Virus record (IMG/VR): IMGVR_UViG_3300025603_000055
Coordinates: 1-30,121 of that record
Origin: a virus
Reading direction: 5' to 3' (one strand)
Length of the DNA: 30,121 nucleotides
Under the pieces are notes generated by a model that was given only the letters and a program-made list of their open reading frames with translations, did not search any database and had not been told where the DNA came from. Below are positions 13,578 to 26,538 of the stretch, piece by piece; the stretch's first letter is position 1, and every line of letters starts with the position of its first letter. Both the position numbers and the translations under genes were made by a program.

Positions 13578-16076
13578 TTATCCTCTCGTTAGATCGGTAC
13601 TCATGTTACCGATACCTTTTCTCATCTTGTGTTGAACACCAACACTTTCCGCTAACAATGCTGCTACTGTTTGCATAGTGTTATTTAACTGATCTAGCTT
13701 ATTATTCAAGTCAGACTGATTGTTAGTCGTGATAGGAGTAGTTGCTGAGACAGTTGGTGCTTTTTGTGATTTATAAAATTCAGCAAGCATGTCGCCTGCA
13801 GGAGTATTTCTTGGAATTACAGCTTCGTTACCATGCAGCATTGCCAAACTCTGTCTTCCAAAATTTTGAAATCCAGCGGTTCCCTGGGCATATACTGGAG
13901 CGTTTGCAAGTAAATTTTCTACTCTGGCGATAGCATTTGGGGTCATCCCCTGGCGTGCGCGGCCGGTTGCTGTTTCAAATAGTTCCTGTTGTCTTTCTAG
14001 TTCGGCTCTGTAGTCTTTACCTTCTTGTCGATCCATTTCTCCAGAGAGAAATCTTCTGTCTTGAGATTCTTGTCGACGAGCTTCCAATGCAGTATCATCG
14101 ATAAACAAACCAAGCAGTCCGGTATTCAGTGTTTCCATTAGCGTAGTAAGAGAATCTTGCAAAAAAATAGTTAGCTTGTTCATCATTTCTCGAGCTCGAG
14201 ATCCTTGCCACATATCTGCCATTGCTTCTGTAAAGTTATCAAAAAATGTTTCAATTCTGTTTTGAGTTTGTGGGTCGTTCCACAATCCAGAAAATGTTGT
14301 TATTAATGAATTTGCTGTTTCTATAAAACTATTTTTAATTGTTTCCCATAATCCTATTCTGTTGGCTTCTTGGGTAAATTCTAAGAACCAATTACCAAAA
14401 TTTGTCATTTGTGTAGATATAAAATTTATTGCGCTGGCAAATGTTTCACCTTCGTATACTTCCTTGAACCAATTACCAAAATTTGTCATTTGTGTAGATA
14501 TAAAATTTATTGCGCTGGCAAATGTTTCACTTTCGTATACTTCCTTGAACCATTTGCCAATGTTGGTAGCTTTTTCTGCTAACCAATTCAAAGCACGGCC
14601 AAGACCGCCGCTTTTTACATAATTGGCAAGCCAAGTTAGGCCTATTGTTGCTATTCCGTTGTCGCCAAATATACCATTAAAGAAACGATTAAACACAGAT
14701 CCTGCTTGACTAAATGGACTGTTGCCGCTGCTGGTATCAAACATATCTATCAATTCTTGTCCGAACTCTCCTAGCTTTGTAACAAAGGCACTGTTGAGGA
14801 ATGCGTCTAAAAAGGCTCTTCTCACCGCAATCACAGCTTGTTCAAACTTTCCAAGTGTAGCAGTCAGCCTATCTCTGCGATTTTGTTCTCTGCGAGCAGC
14901 CGCTGGATCCAACAACATCAATTGGTTGAATTGATACGCACTGTCAGAAAGTCTTGCTAGTTCTCCTACAAATCCTCCGCTCTGTCTATACACATCCAGT
15001 GTTGCTCCGTCGATGCTTCTTGCATATTCGTTGATCCTAGATCCAAACTGCGACATGCCTGATTGATACTCTTCCAAACTCATGCCGCCTTGTGCAAGTC
15101 TTTGTTGGAAGGCAGTGATGCCCGGCGCCATGTTTTCTAGTGCTCTGCCTATGTCGCTTTGTGCAACACCATCAGACAAATCTAAAAGTGCGTCTTCAAA
15201 ACCTGGTAATACATTTTTTTGTAATGCATAGATTGCTTCGGCTTCTTGTCGTGCAGCTACTCCACGAGTTCTTTCTATTTCTGCAAATATATTTCGTGTC
15301 TTGGTATCAGTTTGCATAGCCATTATATCTTGTTCTAATGCGCTTGCTTGCTTGCCAGTTAGTTTTGAAAGCAAATTGAGTTGTCTAATATAATTTGTAG
15401 CACTTTCCTGAGTGGCTGCATCGTTGCGCAAAGATCTCCGAGTTCTCATAGATTCAATGGTCATAAACCCAACAAGTCCTTCATTGATGTCCTGTATGGT
15501 CATACCCATTGCAAAAAAATCATTGCCGATTCCCAATCGTATGTCTCTACTGAATTCTCCTAAAAATTTTGCACCATTGGTCACTGTGCCAGCAAATCTC
15601 GCTAATTCAGTGCTGTTGCTTCTTATCATATCAGTGAAGCCATCGAATGTCATTGCAGCATTTGCACTGGAAGTAACCATATCAAACAAACTGTTGTTAA
15701 AAGAGGCGCCTACACTGCTCAATGTTCTAAAGTCATCAATTACTCCGTCAACATATCCAGCAAACCTTGACACAATATTAGTACTTCCAAATATTGCATC
15801 AGAAAAGTCTCTAATACGTTCGTCTCCAAACACCAATTGATTACCAAATTCTTTTAACTTGATGATATTATCTTTAACAGCGCCTGTGTTGTTATCTATT
15901 GCAGCTGAATTGTTTCTAACTGATCGATTATGAAGATCTCGTGTTCTATTGCCGGCGGCATTTCCTGCTGCGCCGCCACCGTTGATTTGTTTTACTGCTT
16001 CAATTAGTGATTGTAGGGTGGCTTCACTGGCTACTCCACGAATACCACCCACATTATCAATAACAACATTACTCAT
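13578..16076 (-). CDS. Probable tail tape-measure protein, 832 aa
   Basis: The ATG at 16076 (MSNVVIDNVGGIRG) was chosen over an upstream TTG at 16085 because GGAAG lies at a good distance before it. The long central part is helical, with a hydrophobic zone of large aromatic repeats (GKWFKEVYESETFASAINFI). Near the end, GTAGFQNFGRQSLAMLHGNE followed by AVIPRNTPAGDML is the Gly-rich HGxEAVIP motif typical of phage tape-measure proteins, followed by a C-terminal coiled coil (NNKLDQLNNTMQTVAALLAE). It is larger than T4 gp29 (590 aa). It is encoded directly before gp20 and divergently from the gp26-like chaperone. It sets tail length by spanning the tube lumen. Identity as tape measure is inferred from motif, size and context. 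Confidence 0.75.
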   Translation of the reverse strand: MSNVVIDNVGGIRGVASEATLQSLIEAVKQINGGGAAGNAAGNRTRDLHNRSVRNNSAAIDNNTGAVKDNIIKLKEFGNQLVFGDERIRDFSDAIFGSTNIVSRFAGYVDGVIDDFRTLSSVGASFNNSLFDMVTSSANAAMTFDGFTDMIRSNSTELARFAGTVTNGAKFLGEFSRDIRLGIGNDFFAMGMTIQDINEGLVGFMTIESMRTRRSLRNDAATQESATNYIRQLNLLSKLTGKQASALEQDIMAMQTDTKTRNIFAEIERTRGVAARQEAEAIYALQKNVLPGFEDALLDLSDGVAQSDIGRALENMAPGITAFQQRLAQGGMSLEEYQSGMSQFGSRINEYARSIDGATLDVYRQSGGFVGELARLSDSAYQFNQLMLLDPAAARREQNRRDRLTATLGKFEQAVIAVRRAFLDAFLNSAFVTKLGEFGQELIDMFDTSSGNSPFSQAGSVFNRFFNGIFGDNGIATIGLTWLANYVKSGGLGRALNWLAEKATNIGKWFKEVYESETFASAINFISTQMTNFGNWFKEVYEGETFASAINFISTQMTNFGNWFLEFTQEANRIGLWETIKNSFIETANSLITTFSGLWNDPQTQNRIETFFDNFTEAMADMWQGSRAREMMNKLTIFLQDSLTTLMETLNTGLLGLFIDDTALEARRQESQDRRFLSGEMDRQEGKDYRAELERQQELFETATGRARQGMTPNAIARVENLLANAPVYAQGTAGFQNFGRQSLAMLHGNEAVIPRNTPAGDMLAEFYKSQKAPTVSATTPITTNNQSDLNNKLDQLNNTMQTVAALLAESVGVQHKMRKGIGNMSTDLTRG
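14385..14546 (-). repeat. 81-bp tandem duplication in the tape-measure gene
   Basis: Copies at 14385-14465 and 14466-14546 differ by a single base in the part that codes VYE(G/S)ETFASAINFISTQMTN; a third, decayed partial copy follows at 14547. Each unit is 27 codons, so frame is kept. The near identity points to a recent event. Confidence 0.9.
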
Positions 16077-16155
16077 TAGGACCAACTTCCAAATTAAATA
16101 CGTATATAATTTATTCAGATATATACTTGTAAGTATTTACCTGGAGAAAAAATAC
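16077..16155. promoter_or_regulatory. Divergent control region between tape-measure and gp26-like genes
   Basis: 79 AT-rich bases. On the plus strand a late-like ATTAAATA (16093-16100) would start a message near 16106, with GGAG at 16143-16146 serving the ATG at 16156. On the minus strand AATAAATT (16108-16115) would start near 16102 for the ATG at 16076. A 6-bp inverted repeat (ATACTT/AAGTAT, 16123-16136) lies between. All boxes are imperfect. Confidence 0.4.
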
Positions 16156-17013
16156 ATGAACACTACATCATCAAATCCGCTGGCAAAACATTTTAGACAG
16201 CCCAAATTATATGTAAATCTTCCTAGTGGTGGTATGTTTTATCCACAAGGAAGTTTGGAACCAACCGAAACAGGAGAGTTTCCTGTGTATGCAATGACTG
16301 CCAAAGACGAATTGATGTTCAAAACACCAGATGCTCTTCTCAACGGTCAATCCACAGTGAGTGTTATACAAAGTTGTATTCCAAATATCAAAAATGCATG
16401 GCACATACCCAGCATTGACATAGATGCCATATTGGTTGCAATAAGAATGGCAACCTACGGAGAAAAAATGGAGATCGAAGTTAAGGTTCCTACGATCAAC
16501 GAAGAACGTTCTTACGAAATCGATCTGCGCAGTGTACTAGATAATCTGTTGGCTGAAAAATTTGAAAACATCATCAAGCTAAATGGATTCAGTGTTGAGA
16601 TTTCTCCATTGACCTATCGAGAGTTTACTGAATCTGCTATGAAAACATTTGAAGAGCAACGAATGTTTAAAATCATCAACAGCGACGAACTCACAGAAGA
16701 AGAAAAACTTTCAAAATTCAATGAAGCCTTCAATAGATTGACTGATTTGAACATCAGTAGTATTGTAAAAAGCGTAAAGTGTGTGATTTTTGACGGGGAG
16801 GAACCCGTAACTGATACTGATCACATTATAGAATTTTTTGCAAATGCAGACAAAGATGTTTTCAAAAGTGTAATCGACCACATTGGAGAACAAAGAAAAA
16901 GATTTTCAATCAAGCCCTTTACTGTGAAATTATTTGAAGAAGATGTTGCCAAAGGTGCTCCAGAGACTATGGAGATTCCAATTACATTTGATCAATCAAA
17001 TTTTTTCGCCTGA
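16156..17013 (+). CDS. 26: gp26-like baseplate hub/tail chaperone, 285 aa (0-frame product)
   Basis: The ATG at 16156 has GGAG nine bases upstream; in-frame sequence before it is not coding-like. The protein carries a pattern found in gp26-annotated proteins of marine T4-like phages: LYVNLPSGGMFYPQGSLEPT, YAMTAKDELMFKTPDALLNG, QSTVSVIQSCIPNIKN, then ATYGEKMEIEVKVP, and an acidic helical C-terminal half. T4 gp26 (208 aa) is described as a baseplate hub or hub-assembly protein. It is the only short plus-strand unit here and is back to back with the tape measure. Its last codons contain a slippery run and it ends in TGA at 17011-17013, where a -1 shift would extend it to 360 aa. I think it is functionally a tail-assembly chaperone; that part is inference. 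Confidence 0.8.
   Translation: MNTTSSNPLAKHFRQPKLYVNLPSGGMFYPQGSLEPTETGEFPVYAMTAKDELMFKTPDALLNGQSTVSVIQSCIPNIKNAWHIPSIDIDAILVAIRMATYGEKMEIEVKVPTINEERSYEIDLRSVLDNLLAEKFENIIKLNGFSVEISPLTYREFTESAMKTFEEQRMFKIINSDELTEEEKLSKFNEAFNRLTDLNISSIVKSVKCVIFDGEEPVTDTDHIIEFFANADKDVFKSVIDHIGEQRKRFSIKPFTVKLFEEDVAKGAPETMEIPITFDQSNFFA
16998..17007 (+). promoter_or_regulatory. Slippery site for predicted -1 frameshift
   Basis: In the gp26-like frame the bases split as A AAT TTT TTC. Both A-AAT-TTT (16998-17004) and T-TTT-TTC (17001-17007) fit the X-XXY-YYZ rule for simultaneous slippage of two tRNAs. The 0-frame stop follows 4 to 7 bases later. Confidence 0.65.
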
Positions 17014-17237
17014 GGATCTTAACTTGGCCCGTTGAAAAAATCCTCGAAGAGGTTGAGATCCTAGAAAATGAATCCAAAAGAATTAAGTTTGAATTGTCAA
17101 AGTTATGTTGGTACATGCGCGGCGGACTAAGTTTAACAGAAGCATACGACACTTCGCCAGAAGATCGTGAAGTCATGTTCAAACTCATAGAAGAAAATTT
17201 AGAAACAGCTAAGAAAACAAATCAGCCATTCTGGTAA
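17004..17237 (+). CDS. -1-frame C-terminal extension of the gp26-like protein
   Basis: From 17004 the -1 frame codes for 77 residues up to the TAA at 17235-17237. After a short lead-in it reads WPVEKILEEVEILENESKRI, then FELSKLCWYMRGGLSLTEAY, then DTSPEDREVMFKLIEENLET and KTNQPFW. This is a convincing helical protein domain, with a CWYMRGG-x-S-x-x-EA motif that I associate with small proteins after gp26 in T4-like phages. The frame has no ATG, GTG or TTG before the middle of the domain (first ATG 17115), so a separate start would lose the long first helix. Reading through the slippery site would give one 360-aa fusion. Like the lambda G/GT pair, a minor amount of fusion could hold the tape measure. 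Confidence 0.65.
   Translation, partial: FRLRILTWPVEKILEEVEILENESKRIKFELSKLCWYMRGGLSLTEAYDTSPEDREVMFKLIEENLETAKKTNQPFW
17013..17062 (+). promoter_or_regulatory. Stem-loop that could stimulate the -1 frameshift
   Basis: Bases 17013-17023 (AGGATCTTAAC) pair with 17052-17062 (GTTGAGATCCT): 11 pairs, one of them U-G. The loop is 28 bases and holds a small inner hairpin (CCTC/GAGG, 17042-17052, which would compete for the last base). The stem begins 8 bases after the first heptamer or 5 after the second, within the usual spacing. Confidence 0.6.
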
Positions 17238-17240
17238 TAA

Positions 17241-17786
17241 TTATTTTGTTTTCTTAGCTGCAAATCTACTTTGACCAAATCCAGCACTGCCTTTGTATGC
17301 AGCTCTAATGACTTGTTGTACAATGGTTCTAACTTCTCTACGAGTTAACGCATCTGCACCTTCGGCTTCATACATACTGTTGACCACTTTTAAGTTTGGT
17401 CGTCTGTTGGATTTAAACGCAGGAGCAGTAGCAGGTTTGGGTGTAGCCAGTGGAGGCGGCTGTTGACGTGTTAATCCAGCACTGCTGCGAGCAGCAGCAG
17501 TCTTGGCTGTTTTTTTACCTGACTTGGTAGCAAATCCAATGATAATCGGACGAGCAGTGTCTCCTAATCCTTTTTGACCAAAATAATTTTGTAAATCGTC
17601 AGCAGTAAGACGTTTGATTCCGCTTTGCTTCATCCATACAGCAAGCTCAACTTCCATCTGACGTATCTCGTCTTTGATGTCTCCTTTGGCTACTTTGTTT
17701 GCTCTTTTGATTTCACGACCTTTGCGAGTTAATCCAAGATTAAGTTCATCAAGTTCAAAGTTTTCATTTAGATCATCGATTTTCAT
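17241..17786 (-). CDS. Unknown basic, Ala/Lys-rich protein, 181 aa
   Basis: An ATG at 17786 (MKIDDLNENFELDELNLGLT) is preferred over a TTG at 17807, which has no ribosome site and lies almost at the predicted message start. The first 90 residues look helical and mixed-charge (KRANKVAKGDIKDEIRQMEV), with a GLTRKGREIKRA motif and an LTADDLQNYFGQKGLGD helix. The middle is Pro/Ala-rich (RQQPPPLATPKPATAPAF), and the end is basic (RREVRTIVQQVIRAAYKGSA, then KKTK). It lies 3 bases from the convergent end of the frameshift product. The late box with a perfect match to T4 consensus says it is made late; a virion or DNA-binding protein is possible. I do not recognise the family. Confidence 0.65.
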   Translation of the reverse strand: MKIDDLNENFELDELNLGLTRKGREIKRANKVAKGDIKDEIRQMEVELAVWMKQSGIKRLTADDLQNYFGQKGLGDTARPIIIGFATKSGKKTAKTAAARSSAGLTRQQPPPLATPKPATAPAFKSNRRPNLKVVNSMYEAEGADALTRREVRTIVQQVIRAAYKGSAGFGQSRFAAKKTK

Positions 17787-17817
17787 TAGTTCATACTCAC
17801 TGCTCAAGTTATATTGT

Positions 17818-18276: not shown

Positions 18277-18708
18277 CTATATAGCCTTTAAATTTTTTAA
18301 ATGTTCTTGTAATATTTTTGAACTGCCTACTCTAACGTTAATAATACCATTATAGTATTCGTCAGATTCTAAAACTCGCCTATCAAATTGTTCTTTGGCT
18401 TCCATATAGCTAAGTATGCCTCTACTGGGACAAAAATATAATATTTCTCTAGTAAATTTGTCTTCGCCTAATGCAGCAATATCTGCGTTCAAATGATCTG
18501 ATGATCCCCAATAGGTTCTCCAGTCACTTTCCTGTGTTCCGCGCCTTTTATTTTTTTTGCCTTTGAGTGGTGGCTTGCTAGTTTTAAACTTGGCTAATTT
18601 TTTGCCTATATATTTCTTATCATTGGTAAGATTGGTTATCAAATATACGAAACCTTCAACACCCTGAGGTATCTCGGTAACTTCTTTTCCTTGATAAGTC
18701 CAGCTCAT
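18277..18708 (-). CDS. GIY-YIG-like endonuclease, 143 aa
   Basis: Residues about 20-37 (GFVYLITNLTNDKKYIGKK) match the GIY-YIG core: a V-Y strand, then KYIG about 10 residues later. Downstream are a basic loop (PPLKGKKNKRRG), DWRTYWGSS, a helix with Arg-Glu, and YMEAKEQFDRRVLESDEYYN, where the Glu and Asn fit the metal-binding and structural positions. Free-standing GIY-YIG enzymes in T4-like phages are often homing-type nucleases, but repair-type ones exist. The ATG is just after the stop of the 82-aa gene (18712), with no ribosome site, so translation is coupled. It sits at the 3' end of the gp46 operon, next to the RNA-like block. No second DNA-binding domain is seen. Confidence 0.7.
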   Translation of the reverse strand: MSWTYQGKEVTEIPQGVEGFVYLITNLTNDKKYIGKKLAKFKTSKPPLKGKKNKRRGTQESDWRTYWGSSDHLNADIAALGEDKFTREILYFCPSRGILSYMEAKEQFDRRVLESDEYYNGIINVRVGSSKILQEHLKNLKAI

Positions 18709-22713: not shown

Positions 22714-23598
22714 ATGGCTGAAGTAAACACCAGAGGATTTAGTGATTTTTTAAAAACAGTTAACAGCACTGCATCACAAGCACAACGAGCTGTAGGCGCA
22801 GGCATGGGCGTCTTAGGTGCATTAGGAGGACTAGGAAGTGCGCTTGGAATATCGTCCTTGGCACGACTAGGTTCATTGCCAGCAGGCGCTGAAGAAAATT
22901 ATGAAAGTTATACACCAATTGCTTGGAACGAAGGAGCAGAGTCTTCAGGAACAGACTGGCGTGTTCGATTGCACCTGCCTACTAGTATTTCTAGCTTTGC
23001 AAGTTCTCCTATTTTACAACCGTTGTATGATTCAAGCAATAGCATGGTGTTCCCCGCAACTCCGCAGATATTAGTTTCTCATTCTGCCAATTATAGTGCT
23101 ATGTCTCCGACGCACAGTAACTATTCGCATCCAATATATCAAAATAGCACAGTTGAGGACATTACTATCACAGGTGAGTTTCCTGTAGAAAATGAAGCAG
23201 ACGGCAGGTATTGGCTAGCCACTGTTCATTTTTTAAGAAGCGTTACAAAAATGTTTTACGGAAACAGTAGTAACACTGGTGCCCCTCCGCCGCTGATACA
23301 TTTGAGCGGGTACGGAGATTTTGTTTTTGATCGAGTACCTTGTGTGGTTAAATTATTTACATTGGACCTACCCAGCGATGTTGATTACATTCAAGTACCG
23401 ATTTCTAGTTCATCTGATTTGTCAATGACTCCTGAACTAGCGAGAGTAAATGTTCCTGGAGGATACAGTTATGTTCCAACAATGAGCAGAATAAACGTTA
23501 CAGTGTCTCCAACATACAGCAGAGACACAACACGAAGATTTAGCCTTGATACATTTGTACAGGGCGGATATATCGGTAGCGGCCAAGGAATAATATAA
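22714..23598 (+). CDS. 48: Baseplate tail-tube cap protein, gp48/gp54-like, 294 aa
   Basis: The N-terminus is Ala/Gly-rich (GAGMGVLGALGGLGSALGIS), as in gp48/gp54 proteins. The body has the pattern TPQILVSHSANYSAMSPTHS, IYQNSTVEDITITGEFPVEN, then YWLATVHFLRSVTKMFYGNS, PPPLIHLSGYGDFVF and a VPTMSRINVTVSPTYSRDTT end. Proteins of this sort cap or start the tail tube on the baseplate. T4 gp48 is 364 aa and gp54 320 aa; the two are related, so which one this is cannot be settled. It is the first gene of the plus-strand baseplate operon, with GGAG before the ATG. Its stop overlaps the gp53 start by one base (TAATG). Confidence 0.75.
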   Translation: MAEVNTRGFSDFLKTVNSTASQAQRAVGAGMGVLGALGGLGSALGISSLARLGSLPAGAEENYESYTPIAWNEGAESSGTDWRVRLHLPTSISSFASSPILQPLYDSSNSMVFPATPQILVSHSANYSAMSPTHSNYSHPIYQNSTVEDITITGEFPVENEADGRYWLATVHFLRSVTKMFYGNSSNTGAPPPLIHLSGYGDFVFDRVPCVVKLFTLDLPSDVDYIQVPISSSSDLSMTPELARVNVPGGYSYVPTMSRINVTVSPTYSRDTTRRFSLDTFVQGGYIGSGQGII

Positions 23599-23900
23599 TG
23601 GCAAAATATGCATCAAATAGCCCATGGGCAACAACACAAATTCGAAACGGTCAGTATCTAGACTTTATGCAAAAGCAATTTATACCAATTGATCCTAACG
23701 ATATACTTTATGAAATAAAACCTCAATACACCTATAGACCCGACCTGCTTGCGTTTGACTTGTATGGTAGTCCAAAGCTCTGGTGGGTGTTTGCTATGAG
23801 AAACAACGAGGTGTTAAAAGATCCTGTGTTTGATTTTGTAGCAGGAACAAAAATATATCTACCAAAACAGTCAACATTAACTGCATCAATAGGAGTATAA
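23598..23900 (+). CDS. 53: Baseplate wedge protein gp53
   Basis: A 100-aa protein with the gp53/LysM-like baseplate pattern: SPWATTQIRNGQYLDFMQ, then YTYRPDLLAFDLYGSPKLWW, VFAMRNNEVLKDPVFDF and GTKIYLP. The RPDLLA-x-DLYG-x-x-LWWVFA-x-RN stretch is the hallmark. T4 gp53 is 196 aa, so this is a short version with only the core. gp53 joins neighbouring wedges around the hub. It is coupled to the upstream gene (1-base overlap) and is followed after one base by the 878-aa gene, with GGAG before that start. Confidence 0.85.
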   Translation: MAKYASNSPWATTQIRNGQYLDFMQKQFIPIDPNDILYEIKPQYTYRPDLLAFDLYGSPKLWWVFAMRNNEVLKDPVFDFVAGTKIYLPKQSTLTASIGV

Positions 23901-23901
23901 T

Positions 23902-26538
23902 ATGCCTCTTTTAAAAAATGAACTTCATGATTTTGCAACGCACAATTATGCATGGACATTGAGTGCAATGTACCCTGGCGAAACAAACGATCCAAAATTG
24001 TACAAAGGAAAAACAGGAAAATTACCCATTGCGTCATCAGGCGGACTCGGAAACAGAAAAACAGTTACAACAGATGCCGAAGACAAGCGTAAAACAAATG
24101 TGGAATTTTACATAGAAGATGTAGAGTTTCTAAATACAGTTATTCCTACTACACAATCACCTGTTACTGGGGTAAAAACAATAAGTTTTACAATTCAAGA
24201 GCCTTATAGTTTAGGGCTTTTTATGCAAAGTATTGCTGTTGCTGCTAAAAAAGCAGGATTTTCAAATTATACACAAGCACCATTTATGCTGTCAGTAAGC
24301 TTCAAAGGCCAACTACAGGATGGAACATATTCACAAACAAAAACTGATAATTTTCTTATAACAATAGCAACTGTAACAATGAGAGTCACAGCATCAGGAT
24401 CTTATTATGACTGTATTGCAACTCCGTGGAATCATAATGCATCTATGGACAGTATAACAGAACTAAAGCAAGATATAAGACTGCAAGGATCTACAGTAGG
24501 TGAGGTATTGAGTTACGGTCCGAACAGTTTGGCAACATTACTAAACACTTACGAAACACGAGAAGGAATACTAGGAAACAGGCTGGTACCCAACGTTTTT
24601 CAAATTGACTTTCCTTTTGATATTGGAGCAGATGGAGCAACGCAAAGTGCATTTGGCGGCGCCTTGGGAAAAATTCAAGGTACATTTAATAAAATCAATT
24701 CGGCAGTTAGTTCAGTTAATACAGTTGGTACAGCGTTGGGCAATTTTGGTACTGCACTTTCAAATATAGGACAACAAGCGCGGCAAACAGATGCCGCAAG
24801 ACAACGAATAGATGCAGGCGGAACTGCTGGATTAAACATTGATGATGTTCGAGGGGCTGTACCAGTGGTTAGCAGCGTGTTTAATAATCTCGGCGAATCT
24901 ATTAGCAGCTTTGCTCAAAATTTAAGTATCAGTGGAATAAGTCAAATTGGAAACGAAATTGCCAGCGCCCCGATCATTGAAGATTTTAACGATTTTGGTG
25001 ATATACCTTTTGCCCTTGAAAATGTTGTTTGGTCAACTGAAGATGGGATTATCAAGCGAAACGAAATGGCTGTATTCAATTCTGCTGATCGAGTTTTTAC
25101 ATTTAAACAAGGAACTACGATTTATGAAATTATCGAAACTGTAATATATCTAAGCACCTGGGGGCAAAATCTAGTAAGGCAACCAACTGATGCTGCTGGA
25201 TATAATCAATCGTTTAGAGTTCATCCTCGAACATACATCTTGTCAACTGCTGAATTAGCACTTACAGGAAAAATAGCACGTAGATTTGTTTACGAAGTGT
25301 ATCCCTATTTTGTACACAATTCAAATTTTAGTCTTCCAAATGCTACAAACAATTACGAATCAAATGTTGACGATTGCGTAAAAGCATACAACTATGTTTA
25401 CACAGGATTAAACAGAGACGTATTGGATTTTGAATTAACATTTGATACCACCTACACCACAATGATACAGGCAGACAAAGGTCAACTGGGGCTACATGAC
25501 ATCTCAGTCGGTGGCCCAGCAGTGGCAAGACCCACAACCACCACAGGGCTAAATCAAACTATTCAAGACTTAGCTCAAGACTTGGAAAGTGGAGTAGCAG
25601 AAATACGAGGCTCACTCACAGAGATAACCAACATATACAGATTAGCCGGCGGTAACTTCAATGAAAACAACAAAACACGAACTGCATTTATTTTTAGACA
25701 AGCACTGTTGGCTGGCGGTGCACTAACAAAGCTAGAACTTACTATTATAGGAGATCCGTATTATCTAAATGATAGCGATTCGGGCAATTATGTAGCAAAC
25801 CCTCTCAGTCCCAACATCAACAGCGATCTAAAGGCAGATTTTCAGCGTGCTGAAGTATTTGTTTTGGTCAAGTTTAATACTCCAGTGGATTACAGCAACA
25901 GCGATAATCTTTTATTACCAAATCCTGCTGATACAGTTACTGGAATTTATAAGGTGGACACTGTGTTAAGTACGTTTTCTAATGGAAGATTTACGCAAAC
26001 CTTAACGTTGACAAGACAACCAAATCCTGACAAAAGCACATTAAGCAAAGTTAAACGAGTAATTGACAACTTCTTTAACGTGTTGGGGGCATTGAGCAAG
26101 TTTGCAGGAGTAGTTGGAGCCAACGAAGTTTCTAAATCTATCAACAACTTTATGGCAGAAGCTGCCCCTGTTGCAGATTCACTTTTAGGTATTACTGCAA
26201 TTGGTGAAAACATATCTAGTTTGTTAAATGGAGATTACAACAACGCAGTGGAAAGATTGGCTGGGCTGGAAGCTGTATTTGGGCAAGTAGGAGCATTAGG
26301 ACAACAGATATCACAGCTTAGACAAGGATTAGAAGCAGTAGATTTTAATGCCGACACCAATCCATTTGACAGAATAACAACTACAACGCCGAGAGCAACA
26401 AGATTGTTTGGAGATAATGCTATTCGTAATCCATTGACGCCAGTGTCCGGCACAACAACAACAGCACCCACCACAGCATCACCTGGAGCTCAGCCTCCAA
26501 GACCTGGCGCTTCACCAAGCAGTATATGCGATATATAA
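23902..26538 (+). CDS. Large baseplate hub-like structural protein, 878 aa
   Basis: The N-terminal 250 residues (VEFYIEDVEFLNTVIPTTQS, TISFTIQEPYSLGLFMQSIA, YTQAPFMLSVSFKG) and a middle part (ARRFVYEVYPYFVHNSNFSL, then KAYNYVYTGLNRDVLDFELT) look like the beta-barrel hub proteins that sit at the tube end; the YNYVYTG-x-N-x-DVL-x-F motif recurs in hub proteins of other myoviruses as I recall. Between and after are helical Ala/Ser-rich stretches (GKIQGTFNKINSAVSSVNTV) and a Pro/Thr-rich tail ending SSICDI. It is more than twice T4 gp27 (391 aa). Position between gp53 and the gp5-like needle supports a hub role, probably as the gp27 counterpart. This assignment is inferred, not certain. Confidence 0.6.
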   Translation: MPLLKNELHDFATHNYAWTLSAMYPGETNDPKLYKGKTGKLPIASSGGLGNRKTVTTDAEDKRKTNVEFYIEDVEFLNTVIPTTQSPVTGVKTISFTIQEPYSLGLFMQSIAVAAKKAGFSNYTQAPFMLSVSFKGQLQDGTYSQTKTDNFLITIATVTMRVTASGSYYDCIATPWNHNASMDSITELKQDIRLQGSTVGEVLSYGPNSLATLLNTYETREGILGNRLVPNVFQIDFPFDIGADGATQSAFGGALGKIQGTFNKINSAVSSVNTVGTALGNFGTALSNIGQQARQTDAARQRIDAGGTAGLNIDDVRGAVPVVSSVFNNLGESISSFAQNLSISGISQIGNEIASAPIIEDFNDFGDIPFALENVVWSTEDGIIKRNEMAVFNSADRVFTFKQGTTIYEIIETVIYLSTWGQNLVRQPTDAAGYNQSFRVHPRTYILSTAELALTGKIARRFVYEVYPYFVHNSNFSLPNATNNYESNVDDCVKAYNYVYTGLNRDVLDFELTFDTTYTTMIQADKGQLGLHDISVGGPAVARPTTTTGLNQTIQDLAQDLESGVAEIRGSLTEITNIYRLAGGNFNENNKTRTAFIFRQALLAGGALTKLELTIIGDPYYLNDSDSGNYVANPLSPNINSDLKADFQRAEVFVLVKFNTPVDYSNSDNLLLPNPADTVTGIYKVDTVLSTFSNGRFTQTLTLTRQPNPDKSTLSKVKRVIDNFFNVLGALSKFAGVVGANEVSKSINNFMAEAAPVADSLLGITAIGENISSLLNGDYNNAVERLAGLEAVFGQVGALGQQISQLRQGLEAVDFNADTNPFDRITTTTPRATRLFGDNAIRNPLTPVSGTTTTAPTTASPGAQPPRPGASPSSICDI

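Follow-up and report, generated by a model that had tools for sequence, protein, structure and literature searches.

The G/GT tail chaperones of phage lambda are reportedly produced by a -1 frameshift on the sequence GGGAAAG, as Xu, Hendrix and Duda are said to have described in 2004. For phages related to T4, the abstract of a 2022 study by Vladimirov and colleagues reportedly states that several T4-like groups have conserved the frameshifting that yields the long chaperone form, TAC-NC, and that the T4 group itself uses the separate genes 26 and 51. As cited in PMC10885494 and PMC12846349, this study (Vladimirov, Gautam & Davidson 2022, Virology 566:9-15) determined which proteins serve as tail assembly chaperones in T4-like phages, and PMC12846349 credits it with the description of poly-T -1 slippery sequences in their TAC-N genes. 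A poly-T slip motif, GTTTTT, is also given for the tail assembly chaperones of the Vandenendeviridae and Andersonviridae (PMC12846349). The frameshifted arrangement of T4-like chaperones was already reported in 2022, and the first-pass annotation of the locus described here was therefore wrong in implying that none was described for T4-type gp26, since poly-T -1 sites are attributed to that study by the work that cites it.

Here, we analyzed a viral DNA stretch of 30,121 nucleotides (IMG/VR record IMGVR_UViG_3300025603_000055), hereafter called the window, and compared one of its loci with these systems. Judging from sequence comparison, we consider it very likely that this locus is a conserved, working -1 programmed frameshift that yields a short protein, TAC-N (285 aa), and a long protein, TAC-NC (360 aa) (Table 1). 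The short form is encoded by a gp26-like gene whose product matches the T4_baseplate family (PF12322; E=3.8e-10; 40.2 bits against a curated cut-off of 24.5) as well as phrog_150 (baseplate hub; E=3.6e-15), and homologues were found at 20 IMG/VR loci and in 68 phage records. Its AlphaFold2 model is fairly confident (pLDDT 85), and a structure search with this model ranked T4-like baseplate hub assembly proteins first, with a weak match at lower rank to a phage K1H protein annotated as a tail assembly chaperone (E=0.037). Fold searches of the PDB with TAC-N gave no match at E < 0.001, sequence searches of the PDB gave no match, and blastn, run with the whole region on phages and with the gene on plasmids, returned no match spanning the frameshift locus.

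Table 1. Coordinates of the features at the frameshift locus and of its divergent neighbour (positions in the window).
Feature	Position	Strand	Remarks
Possible tape measure protein (client)	13578..16085	-	Divergent neighbour; weak match to a RaK2 protein
gp26-like TAC-N ORF, predicted short form	16156..17013	+	ATG at 16156, TGA at 17011-17013; 285 aa
A AAT TTT heptamer	16998..17004	+	In frame; overlaps T TTT TTC
T TTT TTC slippery heptamer	17001..17007	+	0 frame; one sense codon 5' of TGA
TAC-C, -1 extension	17007..17237	+	Predicted in long form TAC-NC only; 76 aa plus TAA at 17235-17237
TGA, 0-frame stop	17011..17013	+	Terminates the short form
Stem-loop, probable stimulator	17013..17062	+	13 bp, 17013-17025 with 17050-17062

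The final codons of TAC-N are AAT TTT TTC GCC TGA, and the heptamer T TTT TTC contained in them lies within the short overlap of the 0 and -1 frames that extends from the last -1 stop to the 0-frame stop. From just upstream of this heptamer, the -1 frame is open through to its TAA, and the residues that follow ...NFF in this frame, RLRILTW...PFW (RLRILTWPVEKILEEVEILENESKRIKFELSKLCWYMRGGLSLTEAYDTSPEDREVMFKLIEENLETAKKTNQPFW), number 76 and not 77 as counted in the first-pass annotation, which brings the predicted fusion TAC-NC to 284 + 76 = 360 aa. The window has no ATG, GTG or TTG in the -1 frame between the opening of this frame, 19 nt upstream of the 0-frame stop, and 45 nt downstream of that stop, so that frameshifting is left as the simple route to the extension. 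The extension had been described from the letters alone as a helical domain with no normal start, and the fold prediction agrees, returning a helical domain with a pLDDT of 83; a viral fold search with the isolated -1 domain found no match, and neither did a comparison of the window's TAC-C with phrog_634 and Pfam models. Over 17 sequences, comprising the window and its relatives, the median pairwise dN/dS was 0.19 in the -1 extension versus 0.22 in the 0-frame part, and the -1 frame contained no stop across the extension, whereas each of the two remaining frames had 3-13. The -1 product is under purifying selection.

The same configuration recurred widely. Of the 38 gp26-like genes tested, a set that includes near-duplicates and spans uncultured relatives as well as jumbo, rhizobial and cyano-phages, 36 carried an in-frame run of six T's (T6) close to the 3' end and a -1 extension after it. 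Every IMG/VR homologue whose 3' end is intact carried T TTT TTC shortly upstream of the stop together with a colinear 76-residue -1 extension, and additional loci recovered with the extension alone as the query had the same arrangement. Among named phages, Sinorhizobium phage Phosso, Agrobacterium phage Atu_ph07, PA5oct and PBECO4 have T TTT TTC 3-9 nt upstream of the stop and a -1 extension behind it; in RaK2, GAP32, CBB, Munch, BF, XaC1, a Vibrio jumbo phage, SCTP-2, the rhizobial phage IC12 and the cyanophage Sf-FS3, the distance is 3-33 nt, again with a -1 extension. Variants of the slip run were observed as well, namely TTTTTTT in XacN1 and CM1 and TTTTTTG in RL38J1. The two exceptions among the 38, both devoid of T6, were Cygsa01 and Aeromonas phage 31. 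In three relatives, Serratia phage BF (L031), Munch (L032) and XaC1 (L038), the 0-frame stop is placed 11 codons beyond T TTT TTC, which lengthens the overlap of the two frames.

The slip site is also exceptional within the window itself, as T TTT TTC occurs in frame only once in the 8272 codon positions of the main ORFs, and this sole instance is the slip site. The first-pass annotation had pointed to two overlapping heptamers, both of which are indeed present in frame. Their conservation differs: T TTT TTC is conserved in all close relatives, whereas A AAT TTT is missing from several relatives (L003, L004, L021 and L053-L055), which leaves T TTT TTC as the sole conserved heptamer signal; the overlapping A AAT TTT is probably incidental. 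Synonymous-site conservation along the fused gene reached its maximum at QSNFFRLRI, with an excess identity of 0.69 compared to a mean of 0.13 (z 4.2), and the excess faded across about 12 codons downstream of this peak. The maximum coincides with the slip site and the 5' arm of the downstream stem, and so locates a constraint at the RNA level precisely there. Together, the anatomy of the site, its conservation and the synonymous-site constraint are direct observations, and comparison across these genomes indicates that the slip signal is real and old.

The stem begins 5 nt past the heptamer and has a minimum free energy of -19.4 kcal/mol (z -3.3). It had been announced as an 11-pair stem following after 5-8 bases; the stem and its spacing were confirmed, at 13 bp, while its distribution turned out to be restricted. 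The long stem is common to the window and the relatives L047, L048, L049 and L050, and strong stems occupy the same place in Phosso and Atu_ph07 (z -4.0 and -6.7, respectively). In several other relatives, the downstream fold was no better than in shuffled sequences. Counting pairs, we found covariation of the stem not to exceed that of shuffles. For the two candidate helices in alignment A2, a long one (13-23/52-62) and a short one (13-20/37-44), pairing was above that of slid controls and covariation again not above shuffles. Part of the complementarity can follow from coding, because GATC is palindromic and both arms encode a repeated R/E-I-L. An Rfam search returned only chance miRNA-like matches, on the terminal hairpin. 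The stem is a clade-specific accessory and not a universal part of the signal, and it is probably a stimulator of slippage in part of the clade only.

We next weighed other ways in which the extension could be translated. An in-frame ATG overlaps, adjoins or lies just past the 0-frame stop in Phosso, Atu_ph07, PBECO4, XbC2, Kaldavass, BF and RL38J1, and an ATG also overlaps or adjoins this stop in L048, so that coupled reinitiation could also operate in some relatives. In Pseudomonas phage Cygsa01 (L043), the gp26-like gene at 1072-1982 has no slippery run and a TAC-C-like ORF begins at TAATG, which makes this junction a natural candidate for coupled reinitiation. Given that T6 and an ATG at the stop occur together in some relatives, the frameshift site and coupled reinitiation might coexist or substitute for each other in the wider lineage, with TAC-C made both fused and free. 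We consider this unlikely. If true, it would add a regulatory layer to tail chaperones, and to our knowledge no regulation by fused and free TAC-C has been described for lambda-type chaperones.

Still less likely is a small independent gene downstream, whose translation would depend on termination and reinitiation at or near the stop. Apart from the ATG codons mentioned above and the TAATG of Cygsa01, which has no slippery run, this explanation could draw on the annotation of a separate ORF in several GenBank records; in the records viewed, the extension is an ORF of its own, is reduced to a shorter ORF downstream or goes unannotated, and none gives a joined product. However, the window and most of its close relatives have no ATG, GTG or TTG near the junction, the T6 and the RxRIL codons located upstream of any such ATG are conserved, and the synonymous constraint is centered on T6 and not on a ribosome-binding site.

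The long form could alternatively result from transcriptional rather than ribosomal slippage on T6, with one base inserted, and T6 is compatible with this idea, as one extra U would lead into the identical -1 frame. Yet six T's are short for efficient transcriptional slippage, the phase of the run is T TTT TTN without exception, and the run is closed by TTC in nearly all genes even though TTT is the favored Phe codon (83% in the window's genes). A structured element downstream of the run in several clades likewise speaks against this possibility, to which we assign a very low probability, below that of reinitiation. Lastly, homopolymer runs are error-prone, but the notion that the 0-frame stop is a sequencing or assembly error in one long gene is refuted, with a probability of practically nil, by the recurrence of the configuration in dozens of independent records, including isolated and finished phage genomes.

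Our preferred reading is therefore the one made in the first-pass annotation, namely a -1 programmed frameshift that joins a gp26-like protein to a C-terminal domain in the manner of G/GT chaperones, and this proposal is strongly supported by the comparative data. We infer slippage, its efficiency and a chaperone function along the following lines. The majority of ribosomes would terminate at the TGA at 17011 and release TAC-N, while a minority would move back by one base on T TTT TTC, probably assisted by the stem, and read on in the -1 frame as far as 17237 to produce TAC-NC, which would bear the additional helical C-terminal domain. If lambda G/GT is taken as the model, TAC-N would coat the tape measure protein and TAC-C would recruit tail tube subunits, the ratio of TAC-N to TAC-NC being governed by the frameshift efficiency.

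The client itself may be encoded next door. The product of the divergent gene upstream has a 74-aa match (E=3e-5) to a RaK2 protein, and the note in the RaK2 record cites similarity to a tape measure protein; the adjacent tape-measure gene assumed in the first-pass annotation is thus plausible, on a weak match. On the other side of the locus, a long inverted repeat at 17208-17262 (CAGCTAAGAAAACAAA...TTTGTTTTCTTAGCTG; z -5.9) is common to the end of TAC-NC (17237, + strand) and to a convergent gene at 17241-17807 (- strand), and is a probable bidirectional terminator inside the coding ends of both genes. Further downstream, the region 18277-18708 has a match in the SegE family of GIY-YIG homing endonucleases (PF19835, E 8e-35), and structural genes on the + strand at 22714-26538 encode two virion proteins, one of phrog_12050 and a large one of phrog_11190, as well as a gp53-like baseplate wedge protein (PF11246).

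With regard to T4, its gp26 has no T6 slip signal. T4 gp51 is a PF12322 protein (E=3.9e-52, residues 1-201) whose residues 147-246 match phrog_634 ('baseplate hub assembly catalyst'), a family also matched by the -1 ORFs of cyanophages and rhizobial phages. As gp51 combines PF12322 with a C-terminal part in phrog_634, T4 appears to produce the short form (gp26) and the long form (gp51) from separate genes. The window's TAC-C is likely homologous to the C-terminal domain of gp51, although it has no phrog_634 match and its profile match to that domain is weak (hhalign probability of 36% over 24 columns).

What is new here is one further lineage, the near-universality of T6 alone and the peak of synonymous constraint, which adds a quantitative signal at the RNA level. 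There is also practical value in correct annotation, since many jumbo phage records split, shorten or omit the extension, and the T6 run offers a simple rule for locating TAC-NC in genomes with PF12322 proteins. Compared to the known systems, the locus, as predicted, shares with lambda G/GT a short major and a long minor form and a -1 slip just upstream of the short-form stop, and differs from it in that no sequence similarity was detected between the two, in its T TTT TTC slip site and in its T4-type, contractile-tail lineage. With the chaperones of the Vandenendeviridae and Andersonviridae, it has in common a predicted -1 frameshift on a poly-T run where TAC-N ends and a conserved open -1 frame, whereas these belong to other myovirus families and have a shorter T run. 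Closest are the T4-like chaperones (gp26/gp51), which like the window combine PF12322, a -1 slip site of poly-T type close to where TAC-N ends and a short C-terminal domain. Unlike them, the window represents an uncultured lineage distant from T4, its TAC-C falls outside the phrog_634 and Pfam models, and its gene order differs, as the locus lies beside the portal gene and a putative tape measure gene in divergent orientation and is followed by a convergent gene. The known strategy of making tail chaperone pairs by frameshifting would extend to uncultured viruses of the T4 superfamily.
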